From the NCBI GenBank assembly GCA_903899015.1, contig CAIUHP010000099.1:1-56077 (forward strand): a stretch of 56,077 nt of DNA. Direction: 5' to 3'. This DNA is from an uncultured Armatimonadota bacterium. Its GTDB lineage: Bacteria; Armatimonadota; Fimbriimonadia; Fimbriimonadales; Fimbriimonadaceae. Positions 48,757-56,077 of the stretch are shown piece by piece; the first letter of the stretch is position 1; every line of letters begins with the position of its first letter. Made by a program: the position numbers and the translations under genes. Under the pieces are notes generated by a model. That model did not search any database. It was given only the letters and a program-made list of their open reading frames with translations, and had not been told where the DNA came from.

Positions 48757-50117
48757 AGATTCCATCGGTTGAAAAGTTTTCTCGCGACCTTGCCACTGAG
48801 ACCGTCGAAAGCGTACGGAGCGCTTCGGTCGCCAAAGTGGATGCGCGGAGTAATGCTCTAAAAATCGCCTTTGATGACTTAGAAGGGGCACGAACTCAGG
48901 CCGCTCAAATCAAGGATTACGTACTTGATAACCTGCCCAACCTTTTGCCTCAACTCGAGCTGAAGTGTCGTTTGAACGGCATTGAAGTTCACTGGGCAAA
49001 GAACGCCTCCTCTGCCCGTAAGACGATTCTAGAGATTTGCAAGGCCGCTGCACCGGAAGGCGGGTCGATCGTGAAAGCCAAGTCGATGGCCACCGAGGAG
49101 ATCCACCTAAACAAGCATCTCATCAAGAATGGCTATGAAGTGGTCGAGACCGATTTGGGTGAATACGTTGTCCAAATCGATGACGACACACCTAGTCACA
49201 TCGTCACTCCGATCATCCACAAGAATCGGAAGCAAGTGGCAAAAAGTTTTGAGCGCGAGGGGCTCGGACCTTACACCGAGGTTCCTTCCGAACTTGCGAT
49301 GCAAGCTCGGCACCATCTCCGGGAGAAATTCCGGGAAGCCAAGATCGGCATCAGTGGCGTCAATTTTGCGGTTGCCGAAAGTGGCCGGATCGTTCTCGTT
49401 GAGAACGAAGGAAACAATCGTCTCTCGACCACTGCTCCTGACGTCCATATTGCTGTGATGGGGCTTGAAAAGGTTTTACCAAGCGAGACTGACTTGCCGC
49501 TGTTCCTACGACTTCTCGCGGGATCTGCGACCGGGCAGCAGATGACGACCTATATTCACATGATCTCAGGCCCGAGGCGAAAGGATGAGATGGATGGTCC
49601 AAAGGAAGTTCACCTCGTCATCCTCGATAACGGGCGATCCAAAGTTCTCAACGGTCCTTACAAAGAGATCCTCCGCTGCATTCGCTGCGGTGCTTGCCTC
49701 AATGTCTGCCCCGTTTATCGCCAAGCAAGTGGCCACGCCTACAACAACGTATATTCAGGTCCCCTAGGTGCCGTCTTGGGCCCGGCTCTGGAAGGGGTTG
49801 AGAAATTGCCTGACTTAGCAAAGGCGTCAACTCTTTGCGGTTCGTGTGAAGAAGTTTGTCCGGTTAAGATTCCGATCCCTCGCATGCTACTTCAACTGCG
49901 AGAAGAGGCCAACCGAAAAGGGCTCGTGAAGGAAATGATTCCTTGGTCTATGTTCTCCGTTGGATCGACGAGTGGTTTTCGGTGGAGGCTAGGACTGAAG
50001 ATGTTGCCGTTAGCTCCGATCGCAAAGCATCCCGCAAAATCGGGCTGGGAAGAATTTAAAGACTTGCCCACAAAAGAGGGACGAGATTTTAGGAAGTGGT
50101 GGAATGGGAGATCGTGA
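48753..50117 (+). CDS. lutB: Lactate utilization protein B (Fe-S/LUD-domain subunit)
   Basis: A 454-residue LutB. The N-terminal LUD domain (~60-285) includes GSIVKAKSMATEEIHLN, GVNFAVAESGRIVLVENEGN and GLEKVLPSETDLPLFLRLL. Two 4Fe-4S ferredoxin motifs follow (CIRCGACLNVCPVYR and CGSCEEVCPVKIPIP), then a helical C-terminal tail (EEFKDLPTKEGRDFRKWW). It passes electrons from lactate oxidation to the respiratory chain. The start ATG 48753 overlaps the lutA stop and the stop overlaps lutC by 14 bases, so the three subunits are translationally coupled. An earlier in-frame start lies inside lutA and is unlikely. Confidence 0.95.
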   Translation: MKIPSVEKFSRDLATETVESVRSASVAKVDARSNALKIAFDDLEGARTQAAQIKDYVLDNLPNLLPQLELKCRLNGIEVHWAKNASSARKTILEICKAAAPEGGSIVKAKSMATEEIHLNKHLIKNGYEVVETDLGEYVVQIDDDTPSHIVTPIIHKNRKQVAKSFEREGLGPYTEVPSELAMQARHHLREKFREAKIGISGVNFAVAESGRIVLVENEGNNRLSTTAPDVHIAVMGLEKVLPSETDLPLFLRLLAGSATGQQMTTYIHMISGPRRKDEMDGPKEVHLVILDNGRSKVLNGPYKEILRCIRCGACLNVCPVYRQASGHAYNNVYSGPLGAVLGPALEGVEKLPDLAKASTLCGSCEEVCPVKIPIPRMLLQLREEANRKGLVKEMIPWSMFSVGSTSGFRWRLGLKMLPLAPIAKHPAKSGWEEFKDLPTKEGRDFRKWWNGRS

Positions 50118-50640
50118 AGCGATCCTTACAAATCTAGGGAAGGCGGGAAAAAAATCTCGCCTACCATTGCCTCCGGCACCCATGCCTGCTCTCACGTACG
50201 ATGCGCTGTGGGAGATTTTTGCGACCAAACTTGAAGCTTTGGGCGGCCGCATCGGAAATCTGCAAGATCTTGAAGTGATTTTGTCTCGTCCCCATGTTCT
50301 CGATGTTGAGTCGGCAACTCGTCTCGGTAGAAAATCAGGAGGAGCCGATGTTTGGGCCGCGGAAGTCGGGGTGACTACCGTCGACCTCGCGATCGCCGAA
50401 ACAGCCACTCTGATGTTATCAACCGGTCCCGGTCGACCCCGGTTGGCAAGCCTTACTCCCACCTTGCACGTTGCACTCGTACCAAAAGAAAGAATTGTGG
50501 CGACGATGTCGGAAGCCTTTACCCAACTTACCGATCGCACAACCGTGCTTATCACCGGACCAAGCCGAACAGCCGATATCGAAGGCATTCTTGTCCGGGG
50601 CGTTCATGGCCCTGGAGATGTTCTCGTGATTCCGGTTTAG
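50104..50640 (+). CDS. lutC: Lactate utilization protein C (LUD domain)
   Basis: A 178-residue LutC consisting of a single LUD domain with GADVWAAEVGVTTVDLAIAE, TLMLSTGPGRPRLASLTPTL and the C-terminal TGPSRTADIEGILVRGVHGPGDV (quoted in parts), the block shared by all LUD proteins. It completes the lactate dehydrogenase complex. Its start overlaps lutB by 14 bases. It converges on the PagL-like gene with 6 bases between the stops and no terminator hairpin. No lactate permease or LutR-type regulator is in the window. Confidence 0.94.
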   Translation: MGDREAILTNLGKAGKKSRLPLPPAPMPALTYDALWEIFATKLEALGGRIGNLQDLEVILSRPHVLDVESATRLGRKSGGADVWAAEVGVTTVDLAIAETATLMLSTGPGRPRLASLTPTLHVALVPKERIVATMSEAFTQLTDRTTVLITGPSRTADIEGILVRGVHGPGDVLVIPV

Positions 50641-50646
50641 CGGCTC

Positions 50647-51222
50647 TTAGTATCGAAAGCCGATCAGCAAGAAGAGCTGATTTTCGCCCTTATTGTGCCC
50701 TTTCGTACCTGCATTTGAAATGTGTAGGTAACGAGCACCCAGCATGAATTCTTGTTTGCCAATCGCGATGGTCGCTCCCGCATCCAGTAACGGAGTCGAA
50801 TTCACGATACTATCCAAGTTATCCGTGGCATGATTCTGCGCCTGGAGCCCCCAACCCAAATCGACGAATGCTCCGAGACCGTGCCGATTGGCGGGAAGTA
50901 GCCAACGAGCGTATGCGAGTCCTCCGACTGCAAACGAGGTATCGGGAGCGGCACCAAAAACGCCGGGAGATTTCGTGGTTTCGAAATAACCTTCATAAAC
51001 GACTTGTGCGGGAATTTTGTTGATGAAAAAGCGAGGCTCGCGTCGTGCATAGGCATACCCGATGCCTCCACCCGTCCGAACTTCCTCCGTTCCAAGCACC
51101 AAAAGTCCACGTCCGATAAAGCCTTTTACTTCATGGGAAGATGTATTAAAATCACTGTCAGATGCTCCAAAAACGGATGCAACCGAACCTAAAATAAGTA
51201 AGAAAACGCCTAAAACCTTCAT
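50647..51222 (-). CDS. PagL-like lipid A deacylase / acyloxyacyl hydrolase-family outer-membrane protein
   Basis: A 191-residue protein with a signal peptide (MKVLGVFLLILGSVASVFGA) and an outer-membrane beta-barrel pattern ending in an aromatic C-terminus (FLLIGFRY). The penultimate strands carry RYLHISNAGTKGHNKGENQ, matching the PagL active-site pattern H-x-S-N-A-G..P-N-x-G-x-N, with His and Ser as catalytic residues and Glu in GENQ as third member. PagL removes the 3-O acyl chain of lipid A. If correct, the organism has an outer membrane with LPS-like lipid. It is divergent from der with a 71-base gap. The short motif is convincing; overall similarity is low. Confidence 0.7.
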   Translation of the reverse strand: MKVLGVFLLILGSVASVFGASDSDFNTSSHEVKGFIGRGLLVLGTEEVRTGGGIGYAYARREPRFFINKIPAQVVYEGYFETTKSPGVFGAAPDTSFAVGGLAYARWLLPANRHGLGAFVDLGWGLQAQNHATDNLDSIVNSTPLLDAGATIAIGKQEFMLGARYLHISNAGTKGHNKGENQLFLLIGFRY

Positions 51223-51293
51223 GAAACTCTATCGGGGGCCCCGAACTCTCCGCAACGCAGATGTTGTAAGATCAGGTACATTCTGACTCCCCC

Positions 51294-52712
51294 ATGCGTT
51301 CTACGCTTCCTGTTGTTGTTATCGTTGGCCGTCCAAATGTCGGAAAGAGCACTGTCTTTAACCGAGTCATACGTCGGCGCATTGCAGTGGTCGAAGATAC
51401 CCCAGGAATCACTCGCGATCGTCTTTATGCCGAAGCGGAGTGGAACGGGCGAAGGTTCCAGCTTGTAGACACCGGCGGAATCGTGTTCCAGGAAGAAGAC
51501 CCCCTGGCGGATCAAATTCGCGTTCAGGCGAATGTTGCCCTTGAAGAAGCCGACGTTGTTCTCTTTTTAACTGACACCACTGCGGGCGTAAACCCAGATG
51601 ATATGGACCTTGCCAATCAGCTGCGGCCGATTGAAAAGCCGGTACTCGTAGTCGTCAACAAAGCAGACAATCCGCAGCGCGACGATTTCGCAAACGAATT
51701 TTATAGCCTCGGCCTTGGCGAGGTTTATCCGGTTTCTGGTCTCCATGGTCGCGGTATTGCCGACCTCATGGATGTTGTGGTCGACTTACTACCACCCAGT
51801 TCTGAAAAGCGTGACGAGCGCGAAGAGATCAAGGTCGCGATTGTTGGCAGACCCAACGTCGGGAAATCATCGTTGGTCAACGCCTTTACTGGCGAGCAAC
51901 GAATGATCGTCTCCAACATTGCCGGTACGACCCGAGATGCAATTGATACCGAACTCGAATACAAGGGCGAGAAATTCAGACTGATCGACACCGCAGGTAT
52001 TCGACGTCGCGGCAAGATTCAAGGCTCGGTCGAATACTACATGGTCGATCGAGCTCAAAAAGCGATCGACCGATCAGACTGTGCGATGATCGTCGTGGAT
52101 GGCAGCGAAGGCCTAACCGACGGCGACAAGCGCATCATGAAATTGGCCCACGACGCTGGAAAGGCTTGCGTTTTTGCGGTGAATAAGTGGGACATTCAAG
52201 AGCCACCAGACGGCCAACCCAAGCTCAAATCACCGATCAAGAAGGACTTCCTTCAGACAATTTCGAACGAAATACCCGAGCTGGCTTATGCAACCGCCGC
52301 CTTTACCTCGGCAAAGGAAAGTTCAGGCTTGGAGCCCGTGCTGGATGAAATTCTCCGAGCACAGGAAGCCTACAGCTTCCGAGTTTCGACTGGGCTTCTG
52401 AATCGGCTCATCCAGGACGCTACTTTTGCTCGCCCCTACACCAGCAAGGGCCGTGCACTGAAGATTTACTACGCCACTCAAGTTTCCACTCGGCCGCCAA
52501 CGTTCGTGCTGTTTGTCAACGATCCTGACTTGCTTCACTTTAGCTATGAGCGTTACCTGCTCAACAAGATTCGAGCCGCATTCCCACTTGAAGGAACGCC
52601 TGTTCGCATCCGAACGAAGTCGAGCCACGGCAAGGATGATGCGGTCGTGAAGGGCAAGTCGAAAGGCAAGGCCATGGCGAAACCTAAGCCAAAGCCCCAG
52701 CCGAAACCTTGA
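51294..52712 (+). CDS. der: Ribosome biogenesis GTPase Der (EngA)
   Basis: A 472-residue double-GTPase required for 50S subunit maturation. GTPase 1 (~8-165) has GRPNVGKSTVFNRV, DTPGITRDR, VDTGG and VVNKAD. GTPase 2 (~180-350) has GRPNVGKSSLVNAF, GTTRDAIDTE, IDTAGIRRRGKI and AVNKWD. The C-terminal KH-like domain (~355-450) has ARPYTSKGRALKIYYATQVS and PTFVLFVNDPDLLHFSYERYL. A Lys/Pro-rich tail follows (~GKSKGKAMAKPKPKPQPKP), longer and more basic than usual and possibly rRNA-contacting. ATG 51294 has no Shine-Dalgarno; TACATT lies 11 nt upstream. Confidence 0.97.
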   Translation: MRSTLPVVVIVGRPNVGKSTVFNRVIRRRIAVVEDTPGITRDRLYAEAEWNGRRFQLVDTGGIVFQEEDPLADQIRVQANVALEEADVVLFLTDTTAGVNPDDMDLANQLRPIEKPVLVVVNKADNPQRDDFANEFYSLGLGEVYPVSGLHGRGIADLMDVVVDLLPPSSEKRDEREEIKVAIVGRPNVGKSSLVNAFTGEQRMIVSNIAGTTRDAIDTELEYKGEKFRLIDTAGIRRRGKIQGSVEYYMVDRAQKAIDRSDCAMIVVDGSEGLTDGDKRIMKLAHDAGKACVFAVNKWDIQEPPDGQPKLKSPIKKDFLQTISNEIPELAYATAAFTSAKESSGLEPVLDEILRAQEAYSFRVSTGLLNRLIQDATFARPYTSKGRALKIYYATQVSTRPPTFVLFVNDPDLLHFSYERYLLNKIRAAFPLEGTPVRIRTKSSHGKDDAVVKGKSKGKAMAKPKPKPQPKP

Positions 52713-52717
52713 TCGCT

Positions 52718-53500
52718 CTAGTTGTACATCACTCGGGCCAGTAGGAAATTCGCGATATAGATCAGCACCATGGATACCACCACGGTGTTCGTGGTTGCTT
52801 TACCAACTCCGACCGCACCCTCCTTTGTTCGCATGCCCTGTTGGCAGGCGACCAAAGTGATAATGAGTCCAAATACTGGCGTCTTGAGAATGCCGTGAAT
52901 AACGTCTTCCGGTTTTACAAACTGGGAAACGGAATGCATAAACGCGAGTGCGGTGATGTGCTCGGTTGTCGCAATGAGGAGCCCGCCTGTGATGCCTGAC
53001 CACATGCACACGAGAGCAAGCACGGGCAGCATTGTGATTCCGGCGATGACTCGTGGAAGCACCAGGTAATTCGTTGGATGGACGCTGAGCATCTTCAGTG
53101 CGTCAATTTGCTCGGTAACCGCCATCGTTCCGATTTGGGCCGCCATAGCCGATCCGCACCGACCGGCAACCATGATTCCCGCGATGACGGGACCAATTTC
53201 TCGAGTCACGGTCAAACCAACGGTTGCTCCAACAAATCCAGTTGCGTTGTAGCGACCTAGAAATTGAGAAAGGTACAGCGACAATACGGCGCCGGAGAAA
53301 AATCCCGTTAAGGCAACGATGGGAACCGAAGCCACTCCGATAAAGGCCATCTGATTGACGGTTTCACCGAATTCAAATGGACGACGGAAGCACCGCTTGA
53401 TCGCGTCCAGAAAAATGATTGTGATCTCACCAAAAAAGGTTAGGAAAGTTAGGATCGGAGCAACAATCGGTTCGAAGATGCCAGCCGGCTTTGTCGCCAT
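52718..53500 (-). CDS. MlaE-family lipid-transport ABC permease
   Basis: A 260-residue permease of the MlaE/YrbE/Ttg2B family (PF02405), which moves phospholipids between inner and outer membrane. Signature segments are AFIGVASVPIVALTGFFSGAV, GLTVTREIGPVIAGIMVAGRCGSAMAAQIGTM (quoted across the family's EIGP block), TEQIDALKMLSVHPTNYLVLPR and CQQGMRTKEGAVGVGKATTN. ATG 53500 is chosen because TATCAT lies 7 nt upstream and the conserved protein starts there; the frame is open to 53638. No MlaF ATPase or MlaD gene is visible here. Its stop is 5 bases from the convergent der stop. Confidence 0.94.
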   Translation of the reverse strand: MATKPAGIFEPIVAPILTFLTFFGEITIIFLDAIKRCFRRPFEFGETVNQMAFIGVASVPIVALTGFFSGAVLSLYLSQFLGRYNATGFVGATVGLTVTREIGPVIAGIMVAGRCGSAMAAQIGTMAVTEQIDALKMLSVHPTNYLVLPRVIAGITMLPVLALVCMWSGITGGLLIATTEHITALAFMHSVSQFVKPEDVIHGILKTPVFGLIITLVACQQGMRTKEGAVGVGKATTNTVVVSMVLIYIANFLLARVMYN

Positions 53501-53507
53501 GGTATTT

Positions 53508-53513
53508 ATGATA
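53508..53513 (-). promoter_or_regulatory. -10 element (TATCAT) of the mlaE-like gene, leaderless type
   Basis: TATCAT on the minus strand, 7 nt before ATG 53500; decides the start. Confidence 0.5.
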
Positions 53514-53548
53514 GCCGCATTTGGCAAGAGAGCAAACTGAAACAGGGG

Positions 53549-53554
53549 TATCCT
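53549..53554 (+). promoter_or_regulatory. -10 element (TATCCT), leaderless type
   Basis: TATCCT, 7 nt before GTG 53562; the same hexamer and spacing as at 28624. It supports the small gene below. Confidence 0.45.
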
Positions 53555-53561
53555 CCCTATC

Positions 53562-53714
53562 GTGGCCCGGCCCCAGCAGTTCTCATCAAAGCGCAAGGAA
53601 AAATTTCCTTGGATTTTGTTGCTCGCGCTTGCGTTCACAACCTATTTCTTTTGGATTCTTCCTCTTCAGCTTGGACCTCGACCGGTAAAGGTCGAGTTTT
53701 CTAAAACGAAGTAA
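53562..53714 (+). CDS. Small single-pass membrane protein (50 residues)
   Basis: A 50-codon frame from GTG 53562 to TAA 53712-53714. The translation is a basic N-terminus (MARPQQFSSKRKEKFP), one hydrophobic helix (WILLLALAFTTYFFWILPL) and a short C-terminal tail (QLGPRPVKVEFSKTK), a typical inside-positive single-span membrane protein. A leaderless-type -10 lies 7 nt upstream. It sits between mlaE (divergent) and the YchF-like gene, whose ATG is 15 bases downstream, so the two may be co-transcribed. No homologue is recognised. Composition, promoter and packing support it being real. Confidence 0.55.
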   Translation: MARPQQFSSKRKEKFPWILLLALAFTTYFFWILPLQLGPRPVKVEFSKTK

Positions 53715-53729
53715 ACCAACGGGTTCCCT

Positions 53730-54785
53730 ATGAAAGTTGCACTGATCGGATATTCCGCGAGTGGACGAAGCACCCTCTATAGAGCGGCCTCACGGGGCCT
53801 TGCCAAAGGGGATATCACCGCAGTTCCTGTTCCTGACCCTCGATTCGATACCATCGTCGCCCAGGTCAAACCGAAGAAACAAACTCCTGCCTCAGTGATC
53901 CTTCACGACGACCTCGATCCTATTTCTGGTTCGGGCAAAGCTTTCTCGTTGAAGCTGATCGACAGTGCCAAGAAGGCCGATCTCTTGCTGCATGTAGTTC
54001 GCGGCTTTGAGTCGAACACCGTCGCCTACCACGACGACGTGGATGCCTTACGCGACCAAGAAGCGATCGACGTCGAACTCGTGCTCGCAGATCTGCAAAT
54101 CGTGGAGAATCGTCTTGAGCGTTTGAAGCGGTCGACGATGCTCAAGACACCCGGCTCCCCCGACTACATGGAGAATGATCTTTTTCAAAGGATTAAAGAT
54201 CCCCTTGAAAACGGCGTTCCCATACGCGCCATGGAGCTTTCGGAAGACGATCAAGTGGTTGTGCGTAACCACCAGTTCTTGAGTTCGAAGCCGATGGTCA
54301 TCGCCTTTAACGTGAACGAAGACGAGGCATCGACTCCTTCTGAAAAGATGATGAAGCGCATTGAAGAACTCGCAAAACGAGGCACGCCCGCTTTTCCAGT
54401 TTGCGCCACGATTGAGGAAGAAATCGCTCAGCTAGAACCCGCCGATCAACTCGAATTTTTGGAGTCGCTCGGACTGACCGAACCCGCGAGCGATAAAGTC
54501 ATTCGGGCCGTTTACTCTGCGCTTGGCCTCATCACCTTCTTTACTGCGGGAGATAACGACACCCACGCGTGGCCCCTCAAACGAGGCAGCACGGCTCTCA
54601 AGGCAGCTGGCACCATCCATAACGATATCGCAAAGGGATTCATTCGAGCCGAGATCGTCCACTACGAAGACTATCTCGCCGCTGGCTCACTTGACGCCGC
54701 TTATGCTGCAGGCAAGATGTCGTTGGAAGGCAAAGAGTACGTGATCCGAGACGGCGACTTGCTCCACATCCGCAATAAGAGTTAG
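53730..54785 (+). CDS. YchF/OBG-family P-loop protein with degenerate nucleotide motifs
   Basis: A 351-residue protein with YchF layout: G domain with helical insertion (~125-170), then a TGS-like C-terminal domain (ITFFTAGDNDTHAWPLKRGSTALKAAGTIHNDIAKGFIRAEIV and the rest, which is very YchF-like). The family normally hydrolyses ATP and binds ribosomes. Here the P-loop is GYSASGRST (positions 7-15), with Arg13 where family members have the essential Lys (GKST). The DxPG switch-II motif is missing: the region reads HDDLDPISGSGKAF. The NxxE specificity motif survives as FNVNEDE. It may be an inactive paralogue with a regulatory role. No Shine-Dalgarno precedes the ATG. Confidence 0.8.
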   Translation: MKVALIGYSASGRSTLYRAASRGLAKGDITAVPVPDPRFDTIVAQVKPKKQTPASVILHDDLDPISGSGKAFSLKLIDSAKKADLLLHVVRGFESNTVAYHDDVDALRDQEAIDVELVLADLQIVENRLERLKRSTMLKTPGSPDYMENDLFQRIKDPLENGVPIRAMELSEDDQVVVRNHQFLSSKPMVIAFNVNEDEASTPSEKMMKRIEELAKRGTPAFPVCATIEEEIAQLEPADQLEFLESLGLTEPASDKVIRAVYSALGLITFFTAGDNDTHAWPLKRGSTALKAAGTIHNDIAKGFIRAEIVHYEDYLAAGSLDAAYAAGKMSLEGKEYVIRDGDLLHIRNKS

Positions 54786-54802
54786 GACCGGCCCCACCCA
54801 AG

Positions 54803-54808
54803 TACAAT
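54803..54808 (+). promoter_or_regulatory. -10 element (TACAAT), leaderless type
   Basis: TACAAT, 7 nt before ATG 54816. Confidence 0.5.
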
Positions 54809-54815
54809 CGGATTC

Positions 54816-56077
54816 ATGCTTCCGATTGCAGGGATTCTGCTTGCGGTTTCGATGGCGACGCCCGCTCAGACAGTTCAACTTAAACCAGGCATGACTCTGA
54901 CCAAGAGCTGCAAGGTTGCCGCTTACGACTATTTGATTCCAACACAGCAGGGAACTGCAAAGGCGGGAGACGAAGAAATCCCTACTCTTTCTCCCGCGAT
55001 CGTGATCAAGGGTAACAACCTCGTGATCGATTTCGCCGGTTCGGTGCTACGAGGCTCCCCTTCAACCGTCGATCCCGACAAAAGAAAGGGCCTCGGAATC
55101 CTGGTTCAAGGTGACAACATCACCTTGAAGAATCTGACGGTTCGCGGCTACATGGTCGGACTTTGGGCTAAAAACTGCACCCACTTACGCATCGAAAAGA
55201 GCAACTTCTCTTACAACTGGAAGCAGCATTTGATGTCGACCGTCGACAAAGAAGATCTCAGTGACTGGCAAAGTTACCATCACAACGAGCACAACGAATG
55301 GCTACGCTATGGCGCGGCAATGTACTTTGAAGGTTGCGAGAAGTTTGCAGTCGAACACACGAGATCCGTCGGTGGTCAATGCGGGCTCATGCTGGTGCGA
55401 AGCAATAATGGCTTGGTTCGGAACAACGACTTTTCATTCAACAGTGGCGTCGGGCTCGGCCTCTACCATTCGTCAAGCAACAAGGTTCTGAATAATAAGA
55501 TTGACTGGTGCGTCCGAGGATTCTCTTACGGCGTTTATAACCGGGGGCAGGATTCTGCGGGCATCCTCATTTTCGAGTTGTGCCACAACAATGTCTTCGC
55601 ATTCAACTCGGTAACGCATGGCGGCGACGGCTTCTTTATGTGGGCGGGGCAGACCATGATGGACACGGGAAGGGGCGGCTGTAACGGCAATATCCTTTAC
55701 GGAAACGACTTCAGCCATTCCCCGTGCAATGCGATTGAAGCAACTTTTGCGAGTAACTCCTTTGTCAACAACAAACTCGTTGAATGCTGGCATGGTGTTT
55801 GGGGCGGCTTCTCATTCGACACGAAAATCGTCGGTAACATCTTTGGATACAACGGGGAGGCTATCGCGATCGAACACGGTCAGGATATTGCGATCAACCA
55901 CAACGTGTTCATTCGGGATAATGGGGCGATCAATCTTTGGCAAGATCCGATTACCGATAAGAGTTGGAAATATCCCAAGTACCACGACACTGACAGTCGC
56001 GACTACCAGATCTTCGGCAACAAGTTCATCGGAACCGCAACCACCGTTATTCAGATTCGAAATACCAATCGCGTCAA
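54816..56077 (+). CDS. Secreted right-handed beta-helix protein (NosD-like), 3' end beyond window
   Basis: A frame open from ATG 54816 to the last base (420 complete codons), so the C-terminus is missing. The N-terminus MLPIAGILLAVSMATPAQT is a signal peptide. The body shows parallel beta-helix coils with repeated N-N pairs: ITLKNLTVRGYMVGLWAKNC, GLMLVRSNNGLVRNNDFSFN, NKVLNNKIDWCVRGFSYGVY, NNVFAFNSVTHGGDGFFMWA, GNILYGNDFSHSPCNAIEA, NSFVNNKLVECWHGVWGG and TKIVGNIFGYNGEAIAIEHG. This is the pattern of NosD/carbohydrate-binding (PbH1) proteins, periplasmic or extracellular and often glycan-active. A leaderless-type -10 precedes the ATG. No catalytic residue can be assigned. It is the second large beta-helix protein in the window. 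Confidence 0.85.
   Translation, partial: MLPIAGILLAVSMATPAQTVQLKPGMTLTKSCKVAAYDYLIPTQQGTAKAGDEEIPTLSPAIVIKGNNLVIDFAGSVLRGSPSTVDPDKRKGLGILVQGDNITLKNLTVRGYMVGLWAKNCTHLRIEKSNFSYNWKQHLMSTVDKEDLSDWQSYHHNEHNEWLRYGAAMYFEGCEKFAVEHTRSVGGQCGLMLVRSNNGLVRNNDFSFNSGVGLGLYHSSSNKVLNNKIDWCVRGFSYGVYNRGQDSAGILIFELCHNNVFAFNSVTHGGDGFFMWAGQTMMDTGRGGCNGNILYGNDFSHSPCNAIEATFASNSFVNNKLVECWHGVWGGFSFDTKIVGNIFGYNGEAIAIEHGQDIAINHNVFIRDNGAINLWQDPITDKSWKYPKYHDTDSRDYQIFGNKFIGTATTVIQIRNTNRV

Follow-up and report, generated by a model that had tools for sequence, protein, structure and literature searches.

A YchF-like protein lacking both nucleotide switches in an order of Armatimonadota

Proteins that retain a GTPase fold after losing its motifs are known as pseudoGTPases, those of p190RhoGAP being one example, and some functions of the plant protein OsYchF1 are reportedly independent of ATP binding. 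The p190RhoGAP pseudoGTPases are eukaryotic signalling domains within larger proteins, whereas the switchless YchF described here shares their fold, is free-standing and keeps its base-pocket residues; similarly, OsYchF1 was studied in the laboratory, whereas the present case is a natural lineage.

The physiological role of YchF/OLA1 itself, which one study introduces as a universally conserved ATPase, is said there to be largely unknown (PMC8138138). In accounts of the Escherichia coli protein, cross-links locate its main contact with the ribosome to the N-terminal ATPase domain, close to Asn20, and its ATPase activity is stimulated by ribosomes (PMC8138138, PMC8779481); PDB entry 8kie, by its title, contains YchF with the 50S subunit. 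E. coli Cys35, Lys78 and His114 are listed as functional residues (PMC10144078), and Cys35 is also treated in a second source (PMC8779481). According to a review table, a change at Asn230 of OLA1 abolishes nucleotide binding, a change at Phe127 drastically lowers ATP binding, and residue 310 bonds adenine, the table printing Ser310 where the chain that we aligned (2ohf) has Thr (PMC10144078). Our searches returned no literature on YchF in Armatimonadetes and, judged by titles and the starts of abstracts among the matches listed, no description of a switchless YchF.

A conserved YchF variant with a reduced nucleotide site

The window, meaning the whole stretch of 56,077 nucleotides analyzed here, is one contig (C99) of a 4.9-Mb, 99.87% complete genome from an uncultured bacterium of the Fimbriimonadaceae. 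At 53730..54785 on the forward strand it encodes a protein of 351 amino acids, beginning MKVALIGYSASGRST...; among named relatives, the closest identified are Fimbriimonas and other Armatimonadota MAGs (82% to JARLGV010000109). The first-pass annotation had proposed descent from YchF with a well-kept C-terminal TGS-like region, and both proposals hold. The protein matches YchF structures 1jal (2.4e-66) and 8kie (8.3e-61, residues 5-346 aligned) and follows the YchF/OLA1 domain order of G domain, inserted helical domain (approximately residues 96-188, 54015..54293, +, from alignment to 1jal/8kie and the helices of an AlphaFold model) and C-terminal TGS domain (PF06071, 54528..54773, +), the last matching Pfam YchF-GTPase_C at 2.4e-30 and 104.9 bits against a cut-off of 27. 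The AlphaFold model, built from an eight-sequence input, has a mean pLDDT of 64.6, with residues 8-35 around the P-loop below 50; it aligns to 1jal (Z 23.2, 308 residues, rmsd 5.3) and 8kie (Z 23.2, 326 residues, rmsd 5.4), and as a prediction it supports the YchF fold but not the pocket. The score against TIGR00092, the NCBIfam family 'redox-regulated ATPase YchF', is 241 bits, below the equivalog cut-off of 279.2. We conclude that this is a real, conserved variant of YchF, which shares with YchF/OLA1 (TIGR00092, PF06071, 1jal, 8kie, 2ohf) the three-domain order, the helical and TGS domains, the NxxE G4 motif, the magnesium Asp and the base-contact Phe, and differs from it in lacking switch I with the redox Cys35, lacking DxAG, having the potassium-site Lys78 replaced, scoring below the family cut-off, and having a variable P-loop Lys.

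To place these differences, we compared three sets of sequences. Of the 74 switchless copies counted in the order among the matches listed, the 42 read letter by letter are all those in a set of 61 genomes, the window's own included. The window's own family supplies 21 of the 34 canonical rows, other families 12 and E. coli one, so that close rows inflate canonical conservation. A further 33 rows are non-canonical (intermediate) YchF-like proteins from other Armatimonadota families; these and the 12 other-family canonical rows were hand-picked from hit lists. A partial copy (G270b) was omitted from the tree, and a split copy (G010) and a canonical fragment (G054) were kept out of the alignment.

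The P-loop survives as GYSASGRST (residues 7-15, 53748..53774, +), of which orthologues keep Gly7 in 41/42, Gly12 in 42/42 and Thr15 in 41/42. The GxxxxGK[ST] pattern is broken at residues 12-15, where the first-pass annotation correctly read GRST for GKST, with Arg13 (53766..53768, +) in place of the Lys. That annotation had, however, taken the lost Lys to be the defining change and raised the prospect of a fixed Arg, naming orthologues with Lys as an observation that would refute it. The orthologues carry Lys in 23/42, Arg in 17/42 and Cys in 2/42, so that this refuting observation was in fact made, and a tree built without this column requires five changes between Lys and non-Lys, four of them forced by well-supported branches. 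Arg as the key change is thereby ruled out; the Lys position is labile, and the feature that unites the set is the loss of both switches (42/42).

Switch I, which had been overlooked, represents a larger loss than either GRST or the missing DxAG. The spacing from the P-loop Thr15 to Asp36 is 20 residues in all 42 orthologues, versus 30-31 in all 34 canonical rows, which indicates that the 11-residue switch I (the NFPFCTIEPN region of E. coli) has been deleted; the junction falls by alignment at codons 27/28 (53808..53813, +), and E. coli Thr36 and Cys35 are gone with it. The switch I pattern is found in 34/34 canonical, 0/33 intermediate and 0/42 switchless rows. A hidden switch I further upstream was rejected, as an open frame of 356 aa leaves no room beyond the 351-residue protein. 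For switch II, the earlier reading was right that the region is lost but not in its reference motif, since canonical YchF has D[IV]AG (34/34) and not DxPG. The G3 remnant here is DDLD (residues 60-63, 53907..53918, +), its first Asp being kept in 42/42, and D[IV]AG occurs in 4/33 intermediate and 0/42 switchless rows. All 42 orthologues are without the switch I Thr, and 41 of them without the DxAG Gly.

Conservation follows the same outline. Mean pairwise identity in canonical and switchless rows, respectively, is 0.93 and 0.31 over residues 60-75, 0.90 and 0.60 over the P-loop (residues 5-18), and 0.64 and 0.63 over TGS, figures that compare regions within one set better than one set with the other because the sets differ in breadth and 21/34 canonical rows belong to one family. 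Residues near-invariant in canonical rows are kept in at least 41/42 switchless rows for 0/4 in switch I, 1/17 in G3/switch II, 12/26 elsewhere in the G domain, 2/4 in the helical domain and 13/21 in TGS. By these measures the P-loop as a whole has loosened too, which counts against the explanation that we favor below.

Other parts of the pocket remain intact. Asp60 (Mg), Asn194, Glu197, Phe93 and Thr272 (54543-54545) are each present in 42/42 switchless rows, including all 19 with Arg or Cys in the P-loop. Counted by hand against human OLA1 in 2ohf, Phe93 (54006..54008, +) corresponds to Phe127, the base-recognition residue, Asn194 to 230 and Thr272 to 310; the G4 motif, NVNE (residues 194-197, 54309..54320, +), is of the YchF type, with NxxE replacing NKxD. 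Relative to E. coli, Cys35 is deleted, Lys78 is replaced and the His114 column holds Tyr.

The gene shows no sign of decay and is not a chance reading frame: among the three closest loci, pN is 0.12-0.13 against a nearly saturated pS of 0.73-0.85, evidence of purifying selection. A pseudogene is ruled out by this ratio together with the same anatomy in 42/42.

Two forms that alternate across the order

To assess the distribution of the two forms, 113 genomes of the order were surveyed with TIGR00092, whose cut-off separates them cleanly within the order but not within other families: full-length canonical copies (n=29) score 506-531 bits and switchless copies at most 265.4. Among the matches listed, 70 genomes have the switchless form only, 31 the canonical only, 4 both and 8 neither, in a tally made by hand with fragments assigned by judgement (a 264-bit piece in G147 as canonical, those in G151 and G158 as switchless). 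In the 88 genomes at least 90% complete, the corresponding counts among the matches listed are 57, 26, 3 and 2. Six single-contig genomes carry the switchless form only (G026, G029, G041, G145, G154, G155). Across most of this order, the switch has been lost in nature from what is apparently the only YchF.

The window's own genome is one of the four with both forms, the others being G005, G008 and G054 (73% complete, with a canonical fragment). The first-pass annotation had suggested a search for a second, canonical ychF, and one is present at G000:C87:22065-23153 with 521.7 bits, 35% identical to the window protein over residues 28-347. Coexistence is not a binning artefact, as G008 consists of one contig carrying both. 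Within the window's genus (20 genomes), 15 have the canonical form only, 3 both and 2 the switchless only. The switchless form, alternating with the switched one among close relatives, offers a natural test of whether YchF function needs a nucleotide switch, and it is a warning that a 'YchF' annotation need not imply an encoded ATPase.

The near-exclusivity of the two forms may reflect shared descent, a point against the explanation favored below. In a 109-row tree (quick method, no bootstrap, unrooted), canonical rows including E. coli lie on one side of a branch with SH-aLRT 98. The 21 canonical rows of the window's family cluster tightly (support 99) and stand separate from the switchless lineage, which makes them unlikely to be switchless genes that were repaired. 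In the canonical-only genome G004, homologues of the small ORF upstream of the window's gene and of the gene downstream (54816..56075, +, in the ORF list, running off the window) lie about 315 nt apart, the remaining region being rearranged relative to the window, and no trace of switchless ychF was detected at E up to 1. This empty site fits replacement of one YchF form by the other.

The YchF-like proteins of other Armatimonadota families are in intermediate states, suggesting stepwise loss. Like the switchless form, these 33 proteins lack the switch I pattern (33/33) and mostly D[IV]AG (absent in 29/33); they differ in keeping the P-loop Lys (33/33) and in a loop of 20-31 residues between the P-loop and Asp36, not uniformly 20. 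Three of the other Armatimonadota genomes, G270 (L121), G253 and G255, have two YchF-like copies each, the G270 pair being adjacent on one contig. Viral contigs yielded no relative. Plasmid records gave 74 with matches, all below 60% identity, and among the best 15 of the 74, 8 carry a ychF annotation while 7 have no listed gene.

The eight genomes with neither form gave no match in a further search either. Two of them, G045 (98% complete) and G156 (97%), also have no hit to the small membrane protein described below among the matches listed; a single deletion at the locus would account for both absences. At this completeness, genomes without any YchF suggest that it may be dispensable here, which likewise counts against the favored explanation.

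A small membrane-protein gene upstream

Directly upstream lies an unannotated gene for a small single-TM protein (53562..53714, +; 50 aa if GTG is the start), identified by profile, hydrophobicity and pN/pS and ending 15 nt before the start of switchless ychF. The protein has a basic N end and the pattern FPW...FWxLPxQLGxRPVxVEF, and its substitutions are protein-like (pN 0.16-0.30, pS 0.82-0.91). A profile finds it directly upstream of 42/44 switchless and 0/34 canonical loci, although E-values at these loci are partly by construction, the profile having been trained on them. One of the two loci that it misses, L060, offers hardly any upstream sequence; the other, L079, truly lacks the ORF beside ychF, though its genome (G021) has a hit on another contig. 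Screening for a hydrophobic ORF upstream, without the profile, gave 40/43 switchless, 0/34 canonical and 2/33 intermediate loci. The profile at E < 1e-3 likewise finds 2/33 intermediate loci, in both of which the ORF ends where ychF starts, and one more has a similar TM ORF just upstream. In 36/42 loci the stop of the small ORF overlaps the start of ychF. Database searches with the small protein gave no Pfam match (four sequences tried), scattered matches of low significance in NCBIfam (the best, 0.00076, in 1 of 19) and no credible PDB match (best 0.53).

The small gene is also found away from switchless ychF. It is matched at E up to 0.01 in 104/113 genomes of the order, including 30/31 canonical-only genomes, some of these matches being weak and 13 of the regions having been read; an MlaE-like gene lies within the same 10-kb region in 4 of those 13. 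In at least three genomes (G021, G129, G157) the hit is on a contig other than that of switchless ychF. This survival without switchless ychF, and the separate contigs, argue against a dedicated partnership.

On the other strand, a divergent MlaE-like permease gene (52718..53638, -, by Pfam) has a listed GTG start that overlaps the small ORF; its true start may lie further in, at an inner Met. Among larger neighbors (ORFs of at least 90 aa), no cluster besides ychF itself (39/43) occurs in more than 11/43 loci. A terminator-like stem at 53677-53696 was rejected, as it falls inside the small ORF and the region holds 4 such sites versus 3.2 expected. Rfam gave no match over 50000-56077.

A nucleotide-holding YchF and the alternatives

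We consider it somewhat probable, from the residues kept and lost, that the protein is a YchF which holds a nucleotide, does not switch and carries out the usual ribosome-linked job. The pocket for an adenine nucleotide is mostly retained. What is missing are the third-phosphate sensors of a G domain (switch I and the DxAG Gly) and the Lys of the potassium site, from which we would expect the protein to hold nucleotide rather than cycle. The nucleotide would then serve as a structural cofactor, or its level would be read, without cycling between ATP and ADP states, and the target would be bound in one fixed conformation. As the only YchF found in most genomes of the order, the protein most likely performs the ordinary ribosome-linked task; we infer ribosome binding from its kinship and its alternation with canonical YchF, and the ribosome or stress role put forward in the first-pass annotation is plausible. 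The contact itself may differ, given the changed N-terminal domain and the Asn20 column, which holds Asn in 0/42 switchless rows. It also counts against this reading that Asn194, Glu197 and Phe93 might be conserved purely for folding.

That annotation went further and supposed nucleotide independence, in effect a pseudo-ATPase with an empty pocket whose binding surfaces alone do the work. Replacement of the P-loop Lys by Arg or Cys in 19/42, loss of the switches in 42/42, and the state of the Asn12 column (Asn in 0/42) and the His114 column (His in 1/42) would suit it; we nonetheless regard it as rather unlikely, because the base pocket and the magnesium Asp persist in 42/42, the 19 Arg/Cys forms among them, while neighboring switch residues changed freely. 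The opposite possibility is that the protein still works as an ATPase through a rebuilt active site, in which His101 and the invariant Lys49-Lys50 stand in for the lost switch residues. His101 (54030..54032, +), one column off the catalytic-loop His114 of E. coli, is kept in 40/42, Lys49 and Lys50 (53874..53879, +) are each present in 42/42 and rare in canonical rows (1/34 and 4/34), and with the invariant Asp60 their conservation leaves room for what may be a different catalytic arrangement. Loss of the switch I Thr throughout, of the DxAG Gly in all but one row and of the P-loop Lys in 19 makes this unlikely.

Control might instead have passed to the membrane, with the upstream-encoded protein tethering or regulating switchless YchF in place of the nucleotide switch. 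The association of small ORF and switchless form, by profile and without it, the overlapping stop and start, and the protein-like selection on the ORF all speak for such coupling, which is nevertheless very unlikely in view of the profile's training on the same loci, the gene's presence in 30/31 canonical-only genomes and its separate contig in at least three switchless ones. E. coli YchF has been used as a cytosolic control protein (PMC7549839), so membrane coupling would be new. A combined version, in which most of the order uses an adenine-nucleotide-holding, non-switching YchF whose control has moved to the small membrane protein translated just before it, making a membrane-coupled, non-cycling ribosome factor interchangeable with ATP-cycling YchF, is quite unlikely. 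Finally, the predominance of canonical-only genomes in the window's genus (15 of 20) might suggest a paralogue that is decaying or surplus since canonical ychF arrived, but this is hardly credible for a gene that is the sole YchF found in 70/113 genomes among the matches listed, has an intact frame in the 42 copies read and has pN far below pS.

Beyond the switchless rows, Lys50 also occurs in 32/33 intermediate rows, and the Lys49-Lys50 pair is a lead on what replaced the switches.
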